DNA of 64,000 nucleotides from Microbacterium azadirachtae (GTDB lineage Bacteria > Actinomycetota > Actinomycetes > Actinomycetales > Microbacteriaceae): NCBI RefSeq assembly GCF_000956545.1, contig NZ_JYIT01000086.1:124001-188000 (forward strand), given 5' to 3'. The notes under the pieces are model-generated. The model did not search any database. It was not told the DNA's origin and saw nothing but the letters and a program-made list of their open reading frames with translations. The first letter of the stretch is position 1. Each line of letters begins with the position of its first letter. Below are positions 27,727 to 36,520 of the stretch, in pieces. The position numbers and the translations under genes are program-made.

Positions 27727-28995
27727 TCACGCGCTCTTGCGCTTGCGGGCCAGCACGAGCGTGGGAGGAGCACCCTCATCGACGGCGGCGCGGGTCACGA
27801 CGACCTTCTGCACGTCTTCCGCCGACGGGATCTCGAACATGATCGGTCCGAGCACGTCCTCCAGGATCGCGCGCAGACCGCGGGCGCCCGTCTTCCGCTC
27901 CACAGCAAGGTCGGCGATCGACTGCAGCGCATCGTCTTCGAACTCCAGTTCGACGCCGTCGAGCTGGAACATGCGCTGGTACTGCTTGACCAGGGCGTTG
28001 CGCGGACCGGTGAGGATGTCGATGAGGGCGGCCTGGTCGAGCGGGGTGACCGAGGCGACGACGGGAAGCCGGCCGATGAACTCCGGGATCAGGCCGAACT
28101 TGTGCAGGTCCTCCGGCAGCACCTCGCTGAAGAGGTCCAGATCCTTGCCCTTGTCGTGCAGCGGGGCGCCGAAGCCGACGCCGTGCTTGCCTACGCGCGA
28201 GGAGATGATGTCTTCGAGGCCGGCGAAGGCGCCCGCCACGATGAAGAGCACGTTCGTCGTGTCGATCTGCAGGAATTCCTGGTGCGGGTGCTTGCGTCCG
28301 CCCTGCGGCGGCACCGACGCGACGGTGCCTTCGAGGATCTTCAGCAGCGCCTGCTGCACGCCCTCGCCGGAGACGTCGCGAGTGATCGAGGGGTTCTCCG
28401 CCTTGCGGGCGATCTTGTCGACCTCATCGATGTAGATGATGCCGGTCTCCGCGCGCTTGACGTCGTAGTCGGCGGCCTGGATGAGCTTCAGGAGGATGTT
28501 CTCCACGTCCTCGCCGACGTAGCCCGCCTCAGTGAGCGCCGTCGCATCGGCCACCGCGAACGGCACGTTGAGCCGCTTGGCGAGCGTCTGCGCGAGGTAG
28601 GTCTTGCCGCAGCCGGTGGGCCCGATCATCAGGATGTTGCTCTTGGCGATCTCGATCTCGTCGGCCTTCTGCTCGGCCGGCTGCAGCGTTCCGCGTGCGC
28701 GAACACGCTTGTAGTGGTTGTAGACCGCGACCGAGAGGGCACGCTTGGCCTGGTCCTGCCCCACGACGTACTCCTCGAGGAAGGAGAAGATCTCGCGCGG
28801 CTTCGGCAGGTCGAACTCCGCGACCTCGCCGTTGGCCGACTCGGCCATGCGCTCCTCGATGATCTCGTTGCAGAGCTCGACGCACTCGTCGCAGATGTAG
28901 ACGCCGGGACCCGCGATGAGCTGCTGCACCTGCTTCTGGCTCTTGCCGCAGAACGAGCACTTGAACAGGTCGGCGCTCTCACCGATTCGTGCCAT
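27727..28995 (-). CDS. clpX: ATP-dependent Clp protease ATP-binding subunit ClpX
   Basis: AAA+ unfoldase that feeds tagged or damaged proteins to ClpP. The 422 residues begin with the four-cysteine zinc-binding domain (C13, C16, C35, C38), which binds adaptors and substrates. Walker A GPTGCGKT lies near 124-131, Walker [12 protein letters not shown] follows, and the pore loop is in the [11 protein letters not shown] region. The ClpP-docking IGF-type loop appears as VGFGAPL (GVGFGA). GGAGGA precedes the ATG by six bases. It is separated from clpP1-clpP2 by about 6 kb of unrelated genes, unlike the common clpP-clpX adjacency. Confidence 0.97.
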
Positions 28996-29167
28996 GTGCG
29001 TCCTCCTTCGAGACGTGGGCCGCGGTCGCCGCAGCGCGTGCGATCACGACGTGATTCACCGTGCGGCGGAGCCGCGATTCGAGCCTAACCGCTGCACCCG
29101 ACATCGGGCCGTATCGCCACGGATCGCCGCCCTTCCCCGCTTCGCGCCCGGCGAACACGCCGACCCC

Positions 29168-30553
29168 TCAGCTGATGAAGCGGAACCCGCCCCAGCCGTT
29201 GCCGATCTGCTGGTACGAGCCGATCGTCCCCGATCCGGTCCCCCGATAGAGCCAGAGGGTCTGATCGGTTCCGTTGCGGCCGATGATGTCTGCGTTCCCG
29301 TCGCCGTCGTAGTCGCCGGCGCCGGTGATCGTCGAGAAGATGTTCCAGCCCCAGCCGATCTTCCGCGGAGCGGTGAATCCCGTGCTGAGTCCGAAGTAGG
29401 CCCACAGGTCGCCGTTCACGTCACGGGCGATCAGATCGCCCCGTCCGTTGTTGTCGAAGTCGCCTGCGACGAGCGCCGTCATCCCCGACCAGCCGTTGCC
29501 GATCTGGACGCGGCCTCCGAACCAGCCGTTGCCCAGGCCGGGATAGGCGTACAGCGCGGCGTCGGGTCCTCGGGTCACGAGGTCGGGCCGCCCGTCGCCC
29601 GTGAAATCCACCCCGCCCGTGAGCAGACTGTAGGCCGATGTCCATCCCGACCCGACCTGCAGGCCGCTGTAATGACTCGATGCGTCGCCGGAGTAGTAGA
29701 ACAGCCTGCCGTCGGTGCGCGTCTGAAGCAGATCCCCGGCCCCGTCCCCGTTGAAATCGCCGTGCACGATCGCCGAAGTCGTCTCCCACCCGTTGCCGAG
29801 CGTGTTGCCCGTCAACGCGACCGCGCCCGTGGGGCCGTAGCTCAGGTACTCGACCAGGTAGCCGTCGTCGCGCACTCCCAGCAGATCCGACTTCATATCG
29901 CCGTTCAGATCGAAGGGGCCGTTCGGCGCCAGGCCGCCGACCCCACCGCGGTATTCGAAGTGGTTGTGATCGCAGGAATCCTCGAACTGCGTCCATTGCG
30001 CCGGGACGCTGAGGGGGCTGCGGCATTGATACTGCCCGAGCCCTGCGGGGGCGGGCAGCGCGGTGAACATCGAGTTGATCAGCGCAAGGTCCTGCGCCGT
30101 GGCGCCCGTGGAAGGGACGCCGTTGACGCGGGAGATGTCCACCGCGTGGCCGCCTCCCGATCTCCAGTGATAGCTGCTGGTCCCGATCGAGCTGAGTTCC
30201 CCGGTGCAGAACCTGTTCAGCGACGCGACGTAGAGGGAGAACTTCCTGTCGACGATCGTCGTCTTGAGCGCTTGGAGGATCACCGGGTCGATGAGGCAGT
30301 CGCGTACCTGGCCGCCGACGACGTGAGAGAACAGCGCGCCGTTCGCGTACCCGCGGATCTGCGCCATCGGCTCCGGATTCCCGCTCAGCATGCCGCTGTT
30401 GACGATCTGCTGCGCCAGAGTCTGGGACGCGGTCGGAGGGGCCGTCGCCGACGCGGCGCTCCTCGGCACGACGACACTCGTCGCCACGAGGGCGGCAGCA
30501 AGTACCGCGAGCGTGAGCCGCCGCAGGGAGTTCGGGTGCACGAATCGCTTCAC
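29168..30553 (-). CDS. Secreted FG-GAP/VCBS-repeat protein with an M15-like N-terminal domain
   Basis: Exported protein of 461 residues: signal peptide at about 1-36 with a basic start and cleavage near SAASATA. The domain at about 45-200 has paired cysteines (C86, C116, C177, C194) and a possible zinc site: S127-Y-H129, then G135-H-A-V-D139, and DHNHFE at 195-200. This echoes SxHxxGxAxD plus HxH of M15 D,D-carboxypeptidases, with a three-residue insertion. Residues 210-461 hold FG-GAP-like repeats with calcium-type loops (DLNGDMKSD, DFNGDGAGD, DFTGDGRPD, DFDNNGRGD, DYDGDGNAD), expected to fold as part of a beta-propeller. Enzyme activity is inference; substrate unknown. Confidence 0.8.
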   Translation of the reverse strand: MKRFVHPNSLRRLTLAVLAAALVATSVVVPRSAASATAPPTASQTLAQQIVNSGMLSGNPEPMAQIRGYANGALFSHVVGGQVRDCLIDPVILQALKTTIVDRKFSLYVASLNRFCTGELSSIGTSSYHWRSGGGHAVDISRVNGVPSTGATAQDLALINSMFTALPAPAGLGQYQCRSPLSVPAQWTQFEDSCDHNHFEYRGGVGGLAPNGPFDLNGDMKSDLLGVRDDGYLVEYLSYGPTGAVALTGNTLGNGWETTSAIVHGDFNGDGAGDLLQTRTDGRLFYYSGDASSHYSGLQVGSGWTSAYSLLTGGVDFTGDGRPDLVTRGPDAALYAYPGLGNGWFGGRVQIGNGWSGMTALVAGDFDNNGRGDLIARDVNGDLWAYFGLSTGFTAPRKIGWGWNIFSTITGAGDYDGDGNADIIGRNGTDQTLWLYRGTGSGTIGSYQQIGNGWGGFRFIS

Positions 30554-30620
30554 GCGTTCAATATATTGCCTGCGCTCACCACTCTCGAACGCGCACTCGC
30601 GTCCTCGCCGTCACGACGAC

Positions 30621-30653
30621 AGGGCCCGCCCCGCATACAGCGGAGCGGGCCCT
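30621..30653 (-). terminator. Terminator of the SorC-deoC-ALDH operon
   Basis: AGGGCCCGC-C-CCGC (30621-30634) pairs with GCGG-A-GCGGGCCCT (30640-30653) apart from one internal mismatch. It lies 30 bases past the short ALDH gene. Confidence 0.65.
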
Positions 30654-30683
30654 CAGAGCCGCGGAAGCCTCGCGGCGGTTCGC

Positions 30684-31535
30684 TCAGACCATGCTCTTCG
30701 GGTGCCAGACCGTCTTGACCTCGGTGAAGGCCGCGATCCGCTGCGGGGAGGCGACGACCTCACCCGGCGTGAGCACCCGCTTGAGCGTGTCCGCCGCCGT
30801 GATCTGCAGATCGACCCAGTCGATCCCGCCGGCGCCGGACAGATCCAGCGCGTTCACGTCGGCGTGCGCGGCGAGCCACGGCGCGAGCTCCGCCGCAGAG
30901 CCGGTCAGCACGTTGACGACGCCGCCGGGCAGATCACTCGTGGCGAGCACCTCCGCCAGGCTGATCGCCGACAGAGGGTAGGCCTCGCTGGCGACGACGA
31001 CCACCGCGTTCCCGGCGACGAGGGCCGGCGCGACGACCGAGACCAGGCCGAGCAGCGCCGAGTCCTGCGGCGCGATGATCGCGACGACGCCCGTGGGTTC
31101 CGGCGCGGAGATGTTGAAGTAGGCGCCCGCGACCGGGTTCAGGTTGCCCGCGACCTGCGCGTACTTGTCGCACCAGCCCGCGTACCAGACCCACCGGTCG
31201 ATGGCCTCGTCGACCTGTGCGCCCGCGACGGCCGCGGACACGCCCTGCTGCGCCACGATCTCGTCGACGAACTGGGCGCGGCGCCCCTCGAGCACCTCGG
31301 CCACCCGGTACAGCACCTGACCGCGGTTGTACGCGGTGGCCTTGGCCCACCCGCCCTGTGCGCTGCGGGCGGCCTTGACCGCGTCGCGGGCGTCCTTGCG
31401 CGAGGCCTTCGCGGCGTTGGCCAGGAACGCGCCCTTCGGGGTCGTGACCTCGTAGGTGCGGCCGGACTCGCTCCGGGGGAACGCCCCGCCGATCGCGAGC
31501 TTGTAGGTCTTGGGAACGGTCAGTCGCGCGCTCAT
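30684..31535 (-). CDS. Truncated aldehyde dehydrogenase-like protein without catalytic residues
   Basis: 283 residues that align only with the NAD-binding half of aldehyde dehydrogenases: YKLAIGGAFPRSESGRTYEV, then WAKATAYNRGQVLYRVAEVL, GVVAIIAPQDSALLGLVSVV and ALVAGNAVVVVASE. It then stops. The catalytic domain with the nucleophilic Cys and the general-base Glu (ELGG) is absent. The frame is clean, the start overlaps the full-length ALDH stop (ATGA), and a proper terminator follows, so it looks like a maintained gene, not a broken one. Likely a non-catalytic partner of the upstream enzyme, reminiscent of the C-terminal pseudo-ALDH domain of ALDH16 (inference). Confidence 0.8.
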   Translation of the reverse strand: MSARLTVPKTYKLAIGGAFPRSESGRTYEVTTPKGAFLANAAKASRKDARDAVKAARSAQGGWAKATAYNRGQVLYRVAEVLEGRRAQFVDEIVAQQGVSAAVAGAQVDEAIDRWVWYAGWCDKYAQVAGNLNPVAGAYFNISAPEPTGVVAIIAPQDSALLGLVSVVAPALVAGNAVVVVASEAYPLSAISLAEVLATSDLPGGVVNVLTGSAAELAPWLAAHADVNALDLSGAGGIDWVDLQITAADTLKRVLTPGEVVASPQRIAAFTEVKTVWHPKSMV

Positions 31536-33046
31536 GCCGCGCCCCCCTTCTTCGCGGCGACGGCTTCGCCCTTCGCGTCCGTCCGCCCGGCCACGGCGCG
31601 CGGCGCGGCCGATGCCGGACGCAGGTACGCGGCCAGGCCCTGCTTGCCGCCCTCACGGCCGTAGCCCGACTCCTTGTAGCCTCCGAACGGACTCGACGGA
31701 TCGAACCGGTTGAACGTGTTGGCCCACACCACACCGGCGCGCAGCTGGTCGGCGACGGCCAGGATCCGGGATCCCTTGTCGCTCCAGATCCCTGCGGACA
31801 GGCCGTACGGCGTGTTGTTCGCCTTCGCGATCGCCTCGGCGGGGGTGCGGAACGTCAGCACCGACAGGACCGGGCCGAACACCTCCTCGCGCGCGATCCG
31901 GTGCGAGGCCTCGACGCCGGTGAAGATCGTCGGAGCGAACCAGAAGCCCTTGTCCGGGATGACGCAGTCGGCCGTCCAGCGCTCGGCGCCCTCGTCCTCG
32001 CCGACCTGGCTGAGCTCGCGGATGCGGGCCAGCTGCTCGGCGGAGTTGATCGCGCCGATGTCGGTGTTCTTGTCGAGCGGGTCTCCGAGGCGGAGCGTCG
32101 ACAGGCGCTCCTTGAGCCGGTCGATGACCTCGTCATGGATCGACTCCTGCACCAGCAGGCGGCTGCCCGCACAGCACACGTGCCCCTGGTTGAAGAAGAT
32201 GCCGTTGACGATGCCCTCGATCGCCTGGTCGATCGGCGCGTCGTCGAACACGATGTTCGCCGCCTTGCCGCCGAGCTCCAGGGTCAGCGCCTTGCCGGTG
32301 CCCGCGACGGCGCGCGCGATCTCGCGCCCCACCGCGGTGGATCCGGTGAAGGCCACCTTGTCGACGTCGGGATGGCGGACGACCGCCGCGCCGGTCGCGC
32401 CTGCCCCGGTGACGATGTTCACGACACCCGCCGGCAGATCGGCCTGCTGCAGGATCTCCGCGAAGATCAGTGCGGTGAGCGACGTCGTCTCGGCCGGCTT
32501 CAGCACCACCGTGTTGCCTGCCGCGAGAGCCGGGGCGACCTTCCACGCCAGCATCAGCAGCGGGAAGTTCCACGGGATGACCTGACCGGCCACGCCGTGC
32601 GCCTGCGGATTCGGACCCGCACCCGCATAGTCGAGCTTGTCCGCCCAGCCCGCGTAGTAGAAGAACCACGAGGCGACGAGCGGCACGTCGACGTCGCGCG
32701 ACTCCTTGATCGGCTTGCCGTTGTCCAGGCTCTCCGCGACGGCGAGCTCGCGAGCACGCTCCTGTACGAGGCGGGCGATGCGGAAGAGGTACTTCCCGCG
32801 GTCGCGCCCGCTCATCTTCGACCACACCTTGGTGTAGGCGCGGCGCGCGGCGGCGACGGCGAGGTCGACGTCCTCGTCGGAGGCGTGCGCGATCATCGCG
32901 ATGCGCGATTCATCGGCAGGCGAGATGGTCGCGAACGACGCCCCGCGTCCCTCGACGAACTCGCCGTCGATGAAGAGGCCGTATTCGTCCTTCAGTGCGA
33001 GGATGCTCCGCGACTCGGGCGCGGGCGCGTAATCCAGGAATCCCAT
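31532..33046 (-). CDS. Aldehyde dehydrogenase, full length
   Basis: NAD(P)-dependent aldehyde oxidation to the acid. The 504 residues include the cofactor site (VIPWNFPLLMLAWKVAPALA, GNTVVLKPAE, FTGSTAVGREIA), the general base in LELGGKAANIVFDDA and the catalytic cysteine in GHVCCAGSRLL near 290. In this operon the natural substrate would be acetaldehyde released by DeoC, giving acetate or feeding acetyl units (pathway inference). It starts 13 bases after deoC, and its stop overlaps the start of the short ALDH-like gene. The C-terminal tail (about 30 residues, Ala/Lys-rich) is not typical of the family. Confidence 0.92.
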   Translation of the reverse strand: MGFLDYAPAPESRSILALKDEYGLFIDGEFVEGRGASFATISPADESRIAMIAHASDEDVDLAVAAARRAYTKVWSKMSGRDRGKYLFRIARLVQERARELAVAESLDNGKPIKESRDVDVPLVASWFFYYAGWADKLDYAGAGPNPQAHGVAGQVIPWNFPLLMLAWKVAPALAAGNTVVLKPAETTSLTALIFAEILQQADLPAGVVNIVTGAGATGAAVVRHPDVDKVAFTGSTAVGREIARAVAGTGKALTLELGGKAANIVFDDAPIDQAIEGIVNGIFFNQGHVCCAGSRLLVQESIHDEVIDRLKERLSTLRLGDPLDKNTDIGAINSAEQLARIRELSQVGEDEGAERWTADCVIPDKGFWFAPTIFTGVEASHRIAREEVFGPVLSVLTFRTPAEAIAKANNTPYGLSAGIWSDKGSRILAVADQLRAGVVWANTFNRFDPSSPFGGYKESGYGREGGKQGLAAYLRPASAAPRAVAGRTDAKGEAVAAKKGGAA

Positions 33047-33059
33047 GCGTGGTCCTCCG

Positions 33060-34073
33060 TCAGTCGATCGTGACGTAGTCGGGGCCGGAGTAGTGGCCGG
33101 TGGTCAGCTTCTGCCGCTGCAGCAGCACGTCGTTGAGCAGGCTGGAGGCGCCGAACCGGAACAGGTGCGGCTGCAGCCACTCCTCCCCTACGGTCTCGGC
33201 GACGTGCACGAGGTACTTCACCGCGTCCTTCGAGGACCGGATGCCGCCGGCCGGCTTCACGCCGACCTTCGCGCCGGTCAGCCGATGCCAGTCGCGCACG
33301 GCCTCCAGCATGAGGAGGGTGACCGGCAGCGTCGCCGCCGGCGAGACCTTGCCGGTCGACGTCTTGATGAAGTCGCCGCCGGCCAGGATGCCGAGCCACG
33401 ACGCGCGCTTGATGTTGTCGTACGTGTTCAGCTCGCCGGTCTCGAGGATGACCTTGAGCGAGGCGGACGTGCCGTCCTCGCGGCGGCAGGCGTCCTTGAC
33501 CGCGACGATCTGATCGAACACCTGCCCGTAGCGCCCTGCGAGGAAAGCGCCGCGGTCGATCACCATGTCGATCTCGTCGGCGCCCGCCTGCACCGCGTCG
33601 CGGGTGTCCGCGAGCTTGACGGCGAGCGAGGCACGACCGCTCGGGAAGGCGGTCGCGACCGCCGCGACGGAGATGCCGCCGTCATCGGGGTCGCCGTGAC
33701 GGGAGCCCAGCGCCTCGACCGCGTGCGGCACCATGTCGCCGTAGACGCACACCGCCGCGACGGAGGGGCAGCTCGGGTCGGAGGCGTCCGGCAGCTTCGC
33801 CTTGGAGACGAGGGACCGCACCTTGCCCGGTGTGTCCGCGCCCTCGAGCGTGGTGAGGTCGATGAGGCGGATGATCGTGTCCAGCGCCCACGCCTTGGAC
33901 GTGGTCTTGATCGAGCGGGTGCCGAGTCCCGCGGAGCGCTGCTCGAGCCCCACCGCGTCCACACCCGGCAGTCCGTGCAGGAAGCGCCGCAGCGTGAGGT
34001 CGTCGGGGGCGCCGCCGAGCACCTCCAGCGCGGTGCGCCGCGCGAGTTCGGTCGTCGTCACAGTTCCGGTCAC
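33060..34073 (-). CDS. deoC: Deoxyribose-phosphate aldolase
   Basis: Splits 2-deoxyribose 5-phosphate into glyceraldehyde 3-phosphate and acetaldehyde. The 337 residues are longer than the short (about 220-residue) bacterial form and match the long E. coli/actinobacterial form. The Schiff-base lysine is in FIKTSTGKVSP near 236, the second lysine is in GVKPAGGIR near 270, and the acidic relay is in ADEIDMVID. The ATG at 34073 overlaps the regulator stop (ATGA). The chain regulator-deoC-ALDH-ALDH-like forms a compact pathway for deoxynucleoside salvage with acetaldehyde removal. Confidence 0.95.
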   Translation of the reverse strand: MTGTVTTTELARRTALEVLGGAPDDLTLRRFLHGLPGVDAVGLEQRSAGLGTRSIKTTSKAWALDTIIRLIDLTTLEGADTPGKVRSLVSKAKLPDASDPSCPSVAAVCVYGDMVPHAVEALGSRHGDPDDGGISVAAVATAFPSGRASLAVKLADTRDAVQAGADEIDMVIDRGAFLAGRYGQVFDQIVAVKDACRREDGTSASLKVILETGELNTYDNIKRASWLGILAGGDFIKTSTGKVSPAATLPVTLLMLEAVRDWHRLTGAKVGVKPAGGIRSSKDAVKYLVHVAETVGEEWLQPHLFRFGASSLLNDVLLQRQKLTTGHYSGPDYVTID

Positions 34074-35026
34074 TTGTCCAGCTCCAGGAGAGTCAGGGCG
34101 GTCGCCTCATCGGTGACCACCATCGTGCACAGTTTCGAGGCCACGACGGTCCGGGCGATGTCGTGCTTCGCCTCTCCCGCCGTGACGAAGACGGCGGTGC
34201 GCGCGTCGCGCAGCCGTTCGAGGCTCAGTCCCACCGTCCGGGCGTCGAGTTCGGGATCGACGATGTTGCCGTCCGCGTCGATGTAGCGACCGAGGACGTC
34301 TCCGACCGCGCCGCGACGGGCCAGCTCGTCGATGTCCTGAACCGTCAGGTATCCGTTCTCGACGTGCGCGGATCCGGCGTCGCAGACCCCCGCCGTGAAC
34401 AGGTACGCGTCGGCCTGCGCGGCCTGCTCGAGCACGCCGGCGACAGTGCGGTCGCGCTCGATGGCCTGCTTCGTCTCGAGCCGCTCCAGGATCGCGGGGC
34501 TGGGCAGCAGGGCGACCTGGCCGGCGGCGCGCTGCGCGATCGTCGCGGCGAGGGAGGCCGCGCCGCCGGGGCGCCGGTTGACACTCACGCCGCCGTTCAT
34601 CTGCACGACGGTCACGCTGCGCGCCCATCCGTCGGCCATGCGGTCGGCGACCGCGGTGAGAGTGCGCCCCCAGCTCACGGCGAGCGTCTTCGGGACGGGA
34701 CGGAGGGCGGCGAGGTGGTCGGCCGCCCCCTGGGCGACCCGTCCCAGGGTCTCCGTGTCGCTGGGGCCGTTCGGCACCACCACGGCGTCGGCGAGGCCGA
34801 AGCGCTCGCGCAGATCCCGCTCGATGCCCAGCTTGCGGGCGCGCGGGTGGACGATCTCGATGCGGACGATGCCGTCCGCGCGCGCCTGCTGCAGGAGGCG
34901 CCCGACCTTCCAGCGCGAGATGCCCAGGAGACCGCCGATCTCGTCCTGCGTCTTGTCCTCGTCGTAGTAGAGCTCCGCGACACGGACGGCGAGCAGTTCG
35001 TCGTCGTCGATGGCGATACGGGGCAT
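34070..35026 (-). CDS. SorC/DeoR-type sugar-phosphate-responsive regulator
   Basis: 318 residues from the ATG at 35026. The N-terminal HTH reads VAELYYDEDKTQDEIGGLLG, then ISRWKVGRLLQQARADGIV. From about 60 onward it is the SorC-type effector domain (NAGB/CoA-transferase-like fold) seen in Bacillus DeoR, with AVSWGRTLTAVADRM and ARTVVASKLCTMVVTDEATA. It leads the operon with deoC, so deoxyribose 5-phosphate is the expected ligand (family knowledge of DeoR; inference here). A -10 box six bases upstream suggests leaderless translation. The 16-bp palindrome at 35067-35082 is the likely operator. Confidence 0.88.
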   Translation of the reverse strand: MPRIAIDDDELLAVRVAELYYDEDKTQDEIGGLLGISRWKVGRLLQQARADGIVRIEIVHPRARKLGIERDLRERFGLADAVVVPNGPSDTETLGRVAQGAADHLAALRPVPKTLAVSWGRTLTAVADRMADGWARSVTVVQMNGGVSVNRRPGGAASLAATIAQRAAGQVALLPSPAILERLETKQAIERDRTVAGVLEQAAQADAYLFTAGVCDAGSAHVENGYLTVQDIDELARRGAVGDVLGRYIDADGNIVDPELDARTVGLSLERLRDARTAVFVTAGEAKHDIARTVVASKLCTMVVTDEATALTLLELDK

Positions 35027-35032
35027 GCTCCG

Positions 35033-35038
35033 AGGGTA
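35033..35038 (-). promoter_or_regulatory. Probable -10 box of the SorC-deoC operon
   Basis: TACCCT on the minus strand ends six bases before the ATG at 35026, the leaderless geometry seen repeatedly in the window. No Shine-Dalgarno at usable distance. Confidence 0.45.
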
Positions 35039-35066
35039 CCGCGTGACCACACGCACGCGCACGGAT

Positions 35067-35082
35067 CTGCTCATATGAGCAG
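35067..35082. promoter_or_regulatory. 16-bp perfect palindrome, likely SorC operator
   Basis: CTGCTCATATGAGCAG is a perfect palindrome centred about 29 bases upstream of the SorC -10 box, in the -35/-45 region. It is AT-rich at its centre and stands out from its GC-rich surroundings. Confidence 0.65.
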
Positions 35083-35115
35083 GTGGCGACGCTCACTCGC
35101 GCAACCGGAGCGCGA

Positions 35116-35160
35116 ACGCCGCAGGGCGGCCCGGAATCGATCCGGGCCGCCCTGCGGCGT
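35116..35160 (-). terminator. Very stable terminator after clpP2
   Basis: A 20-bp perfect stem: 35116-35135 with 35141-35160, loop ATCGA. It lies 12 bases past the clpP2 stop and closes the clpP1-clpP2 unit. Confidence 0.8.
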
Positions 35161-35172
35161 GGTTTCAGCGGG

Positions 35173-35823
35173 TCAGCTCAGCGCCTGGCGCTTGCGGCTG
35201 GACAGCACCTGGTCGACGATGCCGTAGTCCTTGGCCTCCTCGGCCGAGAGGATCTTGTCGCGATCGATGTCACGGTTGACCTGCTCGACCGGCTTGCCGG
35301 TGTGCTTGGCCATCGTCTCCTCGAGCCAGGTGCGCATCCGGAGGATCTCCGCCGCCTGGATCTCGATGTCCGACGCCTGGCCGTGCCCCGCCTCGCCCAT
35401 CGCGGGCTGGTGCATCAGCACGCGGGCGTTGGGCAGCGCGAGACGCTTGCCGGGGGCGCCCGCCGCGAGCAGCACCGAGGCGGCCGATGCGGCCTGCCCC
35501 AGCACGACCGTCTGGATCTGCGGCGCGACGTACTGCATCGTGTCGTAGATCGCGGTCATCGCGGTGAAGGATCCACCGGGCGAATTGATGTACATCGTGA
35601 TGTCGCGCTCGGAGTCCTGGCTCTCCAGGACGAGGAGCTGCGCCATCACGTCGTCGGCGGACGCGTCGTCCACCTGCACGCCGAGGAAGATCACTCGATC
35701 CTCGAACAGCTTGTTGTACGGGTCCTGGCGCTTGAAGCCGTAAGCGGTGCGCTCCTCGAACTGAGGAAGGACGTAGCGGCTCGAGGGCAGGGTGCCGGCG
35801 GAGCGGAACGTGGGTGTGTACAT
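35173..35823 (-). CDS. clpP2: ATP-dependent Clp protease proteolytic subunit ClpP2
   Basis: Serine peptidase ring subunit that works as a hetero-tetradecamer with ClpP1 in actinobacteria. The 216 residues include the nucleophile in GQAASAASVLLAAG near 111 and the histidine in VLMHQPAMGEAG; the Asp lies in RDIDRDKILSAEEA. The N-terminal MYTPTFRSAGTLPSSRYVLP followed by QFEERTAYG is typical of ClpP2. It starts 17 bases after clpP1 and ends at a 20-bp stem terminator. Confidence 0.96.
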   Translation of the reverse strand: MYTPTFRSAGTLPSSRYVLPQFEERTAYGFKRQDPYNKLFEDRVIFLGVQVDDASADDVMAQLLVLESQDSERDITMYINSPGGSFTAMTAIYDTMQYVAPQIQTVVLGQAASAASVLLAAGAPGKRLALPNARVLMHQPAMGEAGHGQASDIEIQAAEILRMRTWLEETMAKHTGKPVEQVNRDIDRDKILSAEEAKDYGIVDQVLSSRKRQALS

Positions 35824-35840
35824 GGGTGTCCTCTCCAGCC

Positions 35841-36440
35841 TTACTTGTCCGAGCCGTCGGCGCCGGTGCCGCCACCGCCGTGCACGTCACTGGCGTGCTC
35901 GCGCATGTGGTCGACGAAGCCGTACTCGAGGGCCTCCTGCGCCGAGAACCAGCGGTCCCGGTCGCCGTCGGCGTTGATCTGCTCGACGGTCTTGCCCGTC
36001 TGCGAGGCGGTGATCTCGGCGAGACGCTTCTTCATGTCGAGGATGAGCTGCGCCTGCGTCTGGATGTCGCTCGCAGTGCCGCCGAATCCGCCGTGCGGCT
36101 GGTGGAGCAGCACGCGGGCGTTCGGGGTGATGTAGCGCTTGCCCTTGGTGCCGCTGGTCAGCAGCAGCTGGCCCATCGAGGCGGCCATTCCGATGCCCAC
36201 CGTGACGATGTCGTTCGGAACGAACTGCATCGTGTCGTAGATCGCCATGCCTGCGGTGATGGAGCCGCCGGGCGAGTTGATGTAGAGGTAGATGTCCTTC
36301 TCAGGGTCCTCGGCGGCGAGAAGGAGGATCTTCGCACAGATCTCGTTGGCGTTCTCGTCCCGCACCTCGGATCCCAGCCAGATGATGCGATCCTTGAGCA
36401 GCCTGTCGAAGACGCTCGTCGCGACCAGGGGTTCAGCCAT
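35841..36440 (-). CDS. clpP1: ATP-dependent Clp protease proteolytic subunit ClpP1
   Basis: Partner ring of ClpP2. The 199 residues start at the ATG at 36440 ([20 protein letters not shown]); the in-frame extension upstream lacks family character. The nucleophile serine is in [11 protein letters not shown] and the histidine in [23 protein letters not shown] supplies the Asp region. The C-terminal tail is Gly/Ser/Asp-rich. It is 80 bp downstream of a TPR gene and directly before clpP2. Actinobacterial ClpP1P2 is usually essential and needs both subunits for activity (family knowledge). Confidence 0.96.
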
Positions 36441-36520
36441 TTCCGCTCCTGTTTCCGTGTTCGGTGATTCGAATCTACCGGCGACAACGCGCACGCCCGG
36501 CCGTGTTCGCCGTCGGCATA

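Follow-up and report, generated by a model that had tools for sequence, protein, structure and literature searches.

Known ALDH16 enzymes and the layout of the locus

Human ALDH16A1 is a single-chain member of the ALDH16 family of aldehyde dehydrogenases (ALDHs). The extra domain found in ALDH16 is of unclear purpose, and the human member is an unexplained pseudoenzyme. For the ordinary NAD-dependent ALDHs (ALDH1/2, betaine ALDH) we know of no pseudo-subunit. In the aldolase-ALDH channelling pairs of the DmpFG type the ALDH is an acylating (CoA) enzyme. PMC8160307 describes human ALDH16A1 as lacking the catalytic Cys and having no activity. The ALDH16 of Loktanella sp. (6mvr, 6mvs, 6mvt, 6mvu) is known as a dimer which mimics the ALDH tetramer (in part from PMC8160307). 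The aldolase DeoC produces acetaldehyde and glyceraldehyde 3-phosphate, as stated in PMC6365646.

The locus presented here lies in a window of 64,000 nucleotides, which is the whole stretch of DNA that was analysed. On its minus strand the gene order is regulator, deoC, an ALDH of 504 aa and a short protein of 283 aa, and the Pfam and NCBIfam assignments of this cluster are Sugar-bind/DeoR-like, DeoC and twice Aldedh. The features are the following:

27727-28995, minus strand: clpX, flank of the cluster
29168-30553, minus strand: FG-GAP repeat protein, between clpX and the short gene
about 30621..30653, minus strand: 14-bp GC-rich hairpin 3' of the short gene, possible terminator without T-run (shuffle z -4.2)
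30684..31535, minus strand: putative pseudo-ALDH subunit (beta), stand-alone ALDH16 C-terminal domain, 283 aa (ORF; PDB match to 6mvr/6mvu residues 500-764; model)
31532..31535, minus strand: ATGA stop/start overlap of the ALDH gene and the short gene (sequence)
31532..33046, minus strand: putative catalytic ALDH subunit (alpha), ALDH16 N-terminal type, 504 aa (ORF; best PDB match 6mvr residues 11-491)
33060..34073, minus strand: deoC, deoxyribose-phosphate aldolase, 337 aa, the presumed acetaldehyde source (TIGR00126)
34070..35074, minus strand: SorC/DeoR-type sugar-binding regulator (Pfam Sugar-bind, 191.6 bits)
35173-35823, minus strand: ClpP gene, flank of the cluster
35841-36494, minus strand: ClpP gene, flank of the cluster

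The aldolase belongs to the DeoC family with 155.3 bits against TIGR00126, for which the curated cut-off is 117.3, and in the 4.04-Mb host genome the gene at 33060-34073 is the sole match to the DeoC model. The regulator reaches 224 bits against the NCBIfam DeoR repressor model, which is below the cut-off of 420. The cluster and the FG-GAP repeat protein are flanked by the ClpP pair and clpX, and all these genes (27727-36494 of the window) are on the minus strand.

An earlier note on this DNA had described a 504-residue ALDH with Cys and Glu intact and, joined to it by an ATGA overlap, a 283-residue protein; the ORFs at 31532-33046 and 30684-31535 are exactly these. It had also stated that the reading frame is followed by a terminator. 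Of this the 14-bp hairpin stands (z -4.2), but it lacks a T-run, and no canonical terminator (T-run) was found by the terminator scan after the short gene.

The two chains compared with solved ALDHs

The ALDH of the window has Cys292 as nucleophile and Glu257 as base, together with Asn160 and Lys183. Among solved ALDHs its catalytic domain is nearest to ALDH16: the Loktanella enzyme (6mvr) gives 562.5 bits and the next entry 427.2, and this same Loktanella chain is the best match of the short protein. The 504-aa chain shares catalytic residues and family with the ordinary NAD-dependent ALDHs, although these score lower against it (427 vs 562 bits). With Cys292 and Glu257 it has the catalytic pair of an active bacterial ALDH16, unlike human ALDH16A1, which by its description is catalytically dead. 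The same residues are conserved in the partner ALDHs across the loci compared (the fused L115 was omitted from these counts): Cys, Glu and Lys are kept in 220/220 and Asn in 219/220, the last one having an unreadable letter. Since the hydrolytic Glu is always kept, acetate is the expected product. This separates the window-type ALDHs from the acylating ALDH of DmpFG, which the locus otherwise resembles in that an acetaldehyde-making aldolase is encoded together with an aldehyde dehydrogenase. We infer that the 504-aa chain is an active NAD-dependent, non-acylating ALDH.

Pfam recognizes only the first half of Aldedh in the short protein (residues 22-235 against positions 4-214 of the 461 in the profile), and to this extent the statement of the earlier note that the chain stops before the catalytic domain is right. 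The fold, however, runs on through the last strand, and what is present corresponds to the full ALDH16 C-domain. The best PDB match of the short protein is to residues 500-764 of the 767 of Loktanella ALDH16, and the two proteins share their end point (TEVKTVWHP in the short protein and TEVKTIWVP in Loktanella). It scores 156.9 bits against the Loktanella C-domain (207.5 against the whole chain) and 113.4 against the next family. Identity of the Loktanella C-domain to 15 aligned short proteins is 31-42%.

An AlphaFold2 model of the short protein, made from an alignment of 51 rows of which 50 are fused ALDH16 C-domains, has a pLDDT of 90.8. Compared with the crystal structures it is best aligned with residues 494-766 of 6mvr/6mvu (Z 37.1 and 2.2 A for 270 residues, TM-score 0.88). 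The VIA Z-scores of ordinary ALDHs, 35.4-36.8, are tied with that of ALDH16 (37), and the fold by itself therefore cannot single out ALDH16. The comparison with ordinary ALDHs is informative in another way. Residues 9-283 of the model align with residues 7-482 of 4nmj_G with 272 residues aligned, and against such ALDHs the model spans the NAD domain, skips the catalytic domain and resumes at the last strand. This means that the short protein is an ALDH which lacks its catalytic domain and not the product of a truncated gene. Its model shows the ALDH16 C-terminal domain at full length, a Rossmann fold with a terminal flap strand, and this is the make-up of the C-terminal pseudo-ALDH domain that characterizes ALDH16.

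The locus resembles Loktanella ALDH16 in having a catalytic and a pseudo domain that each align nearly end to end, and in that close relatives of the Loktanella enzyme also adjoin deoC. It differs in that the Loktanella enzyme is one chain of 767 residues, whereas in the window there are two chains, from separate genes that overlap at ATGA and are out of frame with each other. The two domains are encoded by overlapping ORFs in different frames and are split in 92/92 loci of the phylum, so we call the system a two-chain variant and not a plain member of ALDH16.

In the short protein of the window the NAD-site Lys, equivalent to Lys183 of the partner ALDH, is replaced by Val. This Lys is absent from all 229 pseudo-domains, namely from 119/119 labelled split (among which L262 is an interrupted fused gene) and from 110/110 labelled fused, and for this reason it is unlikely that pseudo-domains, including that of the window, bind a cofactor in the way an ALDH does. 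The loss of the lysine and of the catalytic domain might be expected if the short protein were a decaying, truncated ALDH duplicate without function, and the short gene does evolve faster than the ALDH gene, its dN/dS being higher in 12 of 13 pairs. Within the genus (four members) the dN/dS values are nevertheless low: the short gene has 0.10-0.27, ALDH 0.06-0.19 and deoC 0.08-0.20. The value near 1 of a decayed pseudogene, named as a refuting observation in the earlier note, is not approached by the short gene, which by these ratios is under purifying selection. One pair, L069/L070, which is a distant one, has 0.69 for the short gene, but there ALDH and deoC also have 0.45 and 0.47. In addition, the short protein has nearly full-length matches in 92/396 genomes of the window's phylum, and the ALDH16 C-domain is its best match along its whole length. 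In view of the dN/dS values, the distribution and the full-length alignment we reject decay or chance truncation of this gene, and we find the duplicate without function scarcely credible.

Occurrence of the two-chain and one-chain forms

In the window's phylum, taken to be Actinomycetota, 105 of 396 genomes match the short protein at E <= 1e-28. These matches fall into two groups, 92 at 9.8e-73 or better and 13 at 4.2e-33 or weaker, and the 13 are taken as ordinary ALDHs. An ALDH of the ALDH16 type is found in 92 of the same 396 genomes, and both genes in 91 at the cut-offs used. The two sets of genomes differ by two, G189, where a contig end leaves only a fragment of the ALDH (L308), and G130, where the ALDH runs off its contig. 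The partner ALDH is present, at least as a fragment, in all 92 genomes that have the short gene.

The DNA around the short gene was read for all 92 loci of this phylum, the window included, and the short protein is on its own chain in each. The ALDH gene is upstream of the short gene in 91/92, at a distance of <=150 bp in 86 and of >150 bp in five; the locus in G094 begins at a contig end, and the ALDH gene of this genome sits at the end of another contig. An upstream deoC on the same strand is found in 85/92 loci. Of the seven loci that lack it, six start where a contig ends; the seventh, L311, has 2.7 kb upstream without deoC. In L061, L070 and L073 deoC is 0.9-2.5 kb away. ALDH and short gene have a stop/start overlap in 33/40 related loci when the start is picked from the alignment, a pattern known from genes with translational coupling. 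The count is 74/91 when the start nearest to a 4-base overlap is chosen; this choice favours overlaps, and we therefore quote 33/40. The order deoC, ALDH, short gene is kept in 40/40 loci. In one locus, L057 (G001), the three genes are in one frame and 60 bases separate the ALDH stop from the short start. A plasmid search gave one match, in Nonomuraea, in a stretch without annotation.

Named genomes were scanned with the domain of Loktanella as first row. The scan ranks loci by their resemblance to Loktanella and for that reason favours fused genes; its best 80 loci, mostly from Rhodobacterales, are 80/80 fused, and 78 have deoC upstream, the remaining two starting within the gene. A sample of Pseudomonadota, drawn evenly, gave matches in 60/397 genomes, 56 of them strong and four weak. 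In the 56 genomes the matches lie at 57 places, and the open frame is at least 768 aa long at every one. Loci were read from 29 of these 56 genomes, leaning to the lower scores, and the 29 strong loci are all fused and have deoC on the same strand. Two other Pseudomonadota loci, L294 and L295, are weak matches (160-163 bits) and were dropped from the family. A record titled Nocardioides marinus (L089) contains a fused ALDH16 with 73% identity to the C-domain of Loktanella, and either this title or the contig may have been assigned wrongly.

Verrucomicrobiota have both forms. In a sample of 240 genomes 30 match, 26 with split genes and 4 with fused genes (one interrupted). Of the 30 loci 26 include deoC, and three of the remaining four genomes have deoC elsewhere. 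The split genes are <=150 bp apart in 12 of the 26 and 0.4-5.6 kb apart in another 12; none of these 24 split loci with both genes on the locus has a stop/start overlap. In the last two the ALDH gene is about 24 kb off or on another contig, and the ALDH is still 66-68% identical. Some genes of the pair are distant in this phylum yet both are present, so the pair is kept even when the genes part. The arrangement is common in the window's phylum and present in Verrucomicrobiota, and is not special to this genome.

The genes found between ALDH and short gene in Verrucomicrobiota vary. L238 has a POT-family transporter there, and the gap proteins of L246 and L251 are transporter-like and resemble it by eye. 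L253 has a small protein of ~150 aa matching PDDEXK_3 (PD-(D/E)XK-type), and L257 a protein of ~150 aa that resembles the latter by eye. The interrupted fused gene, L262 in genome G903, has the frame of its catalytic part broken upstream in this assembly; G903 gave no match to the ALDH of the window at 1e-60 and none to its DeoC at 1e-10.

The lack of overlap and the sometimes long distance between the genes in Verrucomicrobiota are what one would expect if the short protein were a separate regulatory or chaperone-like pseudoenzyme, acting transiently on the ALDH and not being a stable subunit of it. The fused form speaks against such a role, since the pseudo-domain is necessarily stoichiometric there, and it is seen in 80/80 of the best 80 loci and in 29/29 strong Pseudomonadota loci; the gene overlaps in 33/40 loci of the window's phylum also argue for a subunit. 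A transient regulator is in our judgement quite unlikely.

Co-divergence was analyzed for 85 loci, in all cases without tree correction. The pairwise distances of ALDH and short protein correlate with r 0.90. The ALDH-short partial correlation given deoC is 0.69, and the deoC-short partial correlation given ALDH is 0.16, which points to ALDH and short chain as an interacting pair and away from binding of DeoC to the short chain. This bears on the possibility that DeoC, ALDH and pseudo-subunit form an acetaldehyde-channelling complex in which the pseudo-subunit docks DeoC. Acetaldehyde is toxic and volatile, and the order deoC, ALDH, short gene in 40/40 loci would agree with channelling. The low deoC-short value does not agree with it; furthermore, DeoC and ALDH are in different open frames in 40/40 loci and in 78/78 of the best-80 scan, so there is no fusion which hints of a complex at those loci. 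We consider the channelling complex very unlikely.

History and proposed function

Trees were made by the 'quick' method with 28/87 split rows of the window's phylum, 14/23 split rows of Verrucomicrobiota and, for the fused form, 5/5 Verrucomicrobiota and 24/105 others. In the tree of the catalytic domain (79 rows with 8 outgroup ALDHs) the split clade has an SH-aLRT support of 98 and the fused clade 99; when rooted, it has the root between these two clades, the outgroup branches being long, a position that fits fusion and fission alike. The tree of the pseudo-domain (71 rows) divides split from fused by one change with support 100, and so does the deoC tree (70 rows, support 100). A single switch between the one-chain and the two-chain form is enough to account for the rows sampled. 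Since this holds for all three trees, the operon was apparently inherited as one block. The occurrence of Verrucomicrobiota in both clades suggests a transfer.

deoC adjoins the split as well as the fused form in the three phyla sampled. It could still be that the two-chain enzyme serves another aldehyde and that the link to deoC reflects shared regulation or an inherited gene order, as might be read from the missing deoC within 2.7 kb in L311 and its distance of 0.9-2.5 kb in L061, L070 and L073. The position of deoC beside both forms in three phyla, the deoC tree which splits with one change like the others, and the production of acetaldehyde by DeoC (PMC6365646) make another aldehyde unlikely. 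Nucleoside-salvage neighbours were looked for among 32 ORFs from six loci, of which 10 were run on Pfam; 4 matched a family, and no salvage gene was among these four.

The explanation which we hold to be very probable is a two-chain ALDH16, likely of the form alpha2beta2, that oxidises acetaldehyde made by DeoC. The core of it, the reading of the two genes as a split ALDH16, was put forward in the earlier note and is strongly supported by the best structure matches of both chains, their co-occurrence, the fused orthologues beside deoC and the purifying selection. The model can be formulated as follows. The 504-aa chain would carry out a NAD-dependent, non-acylating oxidation of aldehyde. The 283-aa chain would be the pseudo-domain as a separate subunit, its flap strand packing on a neighbour as in ALDHs. 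ALDH and short chain would bind each other, two catalytic and two pseudo chains most likely forming an alpha2beta2 complex of the same shape as the Loktanella dimer; that two-chain dimer mimics the ALDH tetramer, so each pseudo chain would stand in for one protomer. In the window's phylum most loci have an overlap of a few bases between the genes, which would coordinate the synthesis of the two chains, but coupling is loose in Verrucomicrobiota, and in five loci of the former phylum the genes are >150 bp apart. Acetaldehyde from the upstream-encoded DeoC would be converted to acetate, a dedication suggested by synteny. The sugar-binding regulator at the head of the operon probably controls it.

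The balance tips slightly towards a wider statement. Bacterial ALDH16, in one or two chains, would be the dedicated acetaldehyde-oxidising partner of a long type of DeoC; in the window's phylum and in most Verrucomicrobiota that have it, it would be an obligate heteromer, half of the ALDH tetramer being replaced by a pseudo-subunit that has its own gene; and human ALDH16A1 would descend from an enzyme of deoxyribose catabolism.

With a natural two-chain form one can leave out the extra domain, exchange it or vary its amount without having to cleave a protein, and the role of this domain in assembly and activity thereby becomes directly testable. The constant deoC neighbour offers a physiological hypothesis, namely disposal of the acetaldehyde arising from catabolism of DNA sugar. 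The parts of the system are known; new, as far as our literature search went, are the two-chain form, the constant pairing and the link to deoC. By title and abstract none of these three was found among the open-access papers listed by the search, which did not cover the Loktanella ALDH16 paper. Titles and abstracts on ALDH16 and deoxyribose gave unrelated work only, and a search for a two-subunit or split aldehyde dehydrogenase in the open-access literature gave another enzyme only.

A match to DeoC is found in 297/396 genomes of the window's phylum. The DeoC encoded next to the pair is of a long kind (295-337 aa in 40 loci, the starts being chosen by resemblance to that of the window), and ALDH16 may travel with one type of DeoC. 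Two genomes of the same genus which are without the pair, G265 and G359, have one DeoC match each, at 219 and 213 bits vs about 155 in the window, and the open frame of the DeoC in G265 is only 242 aa.
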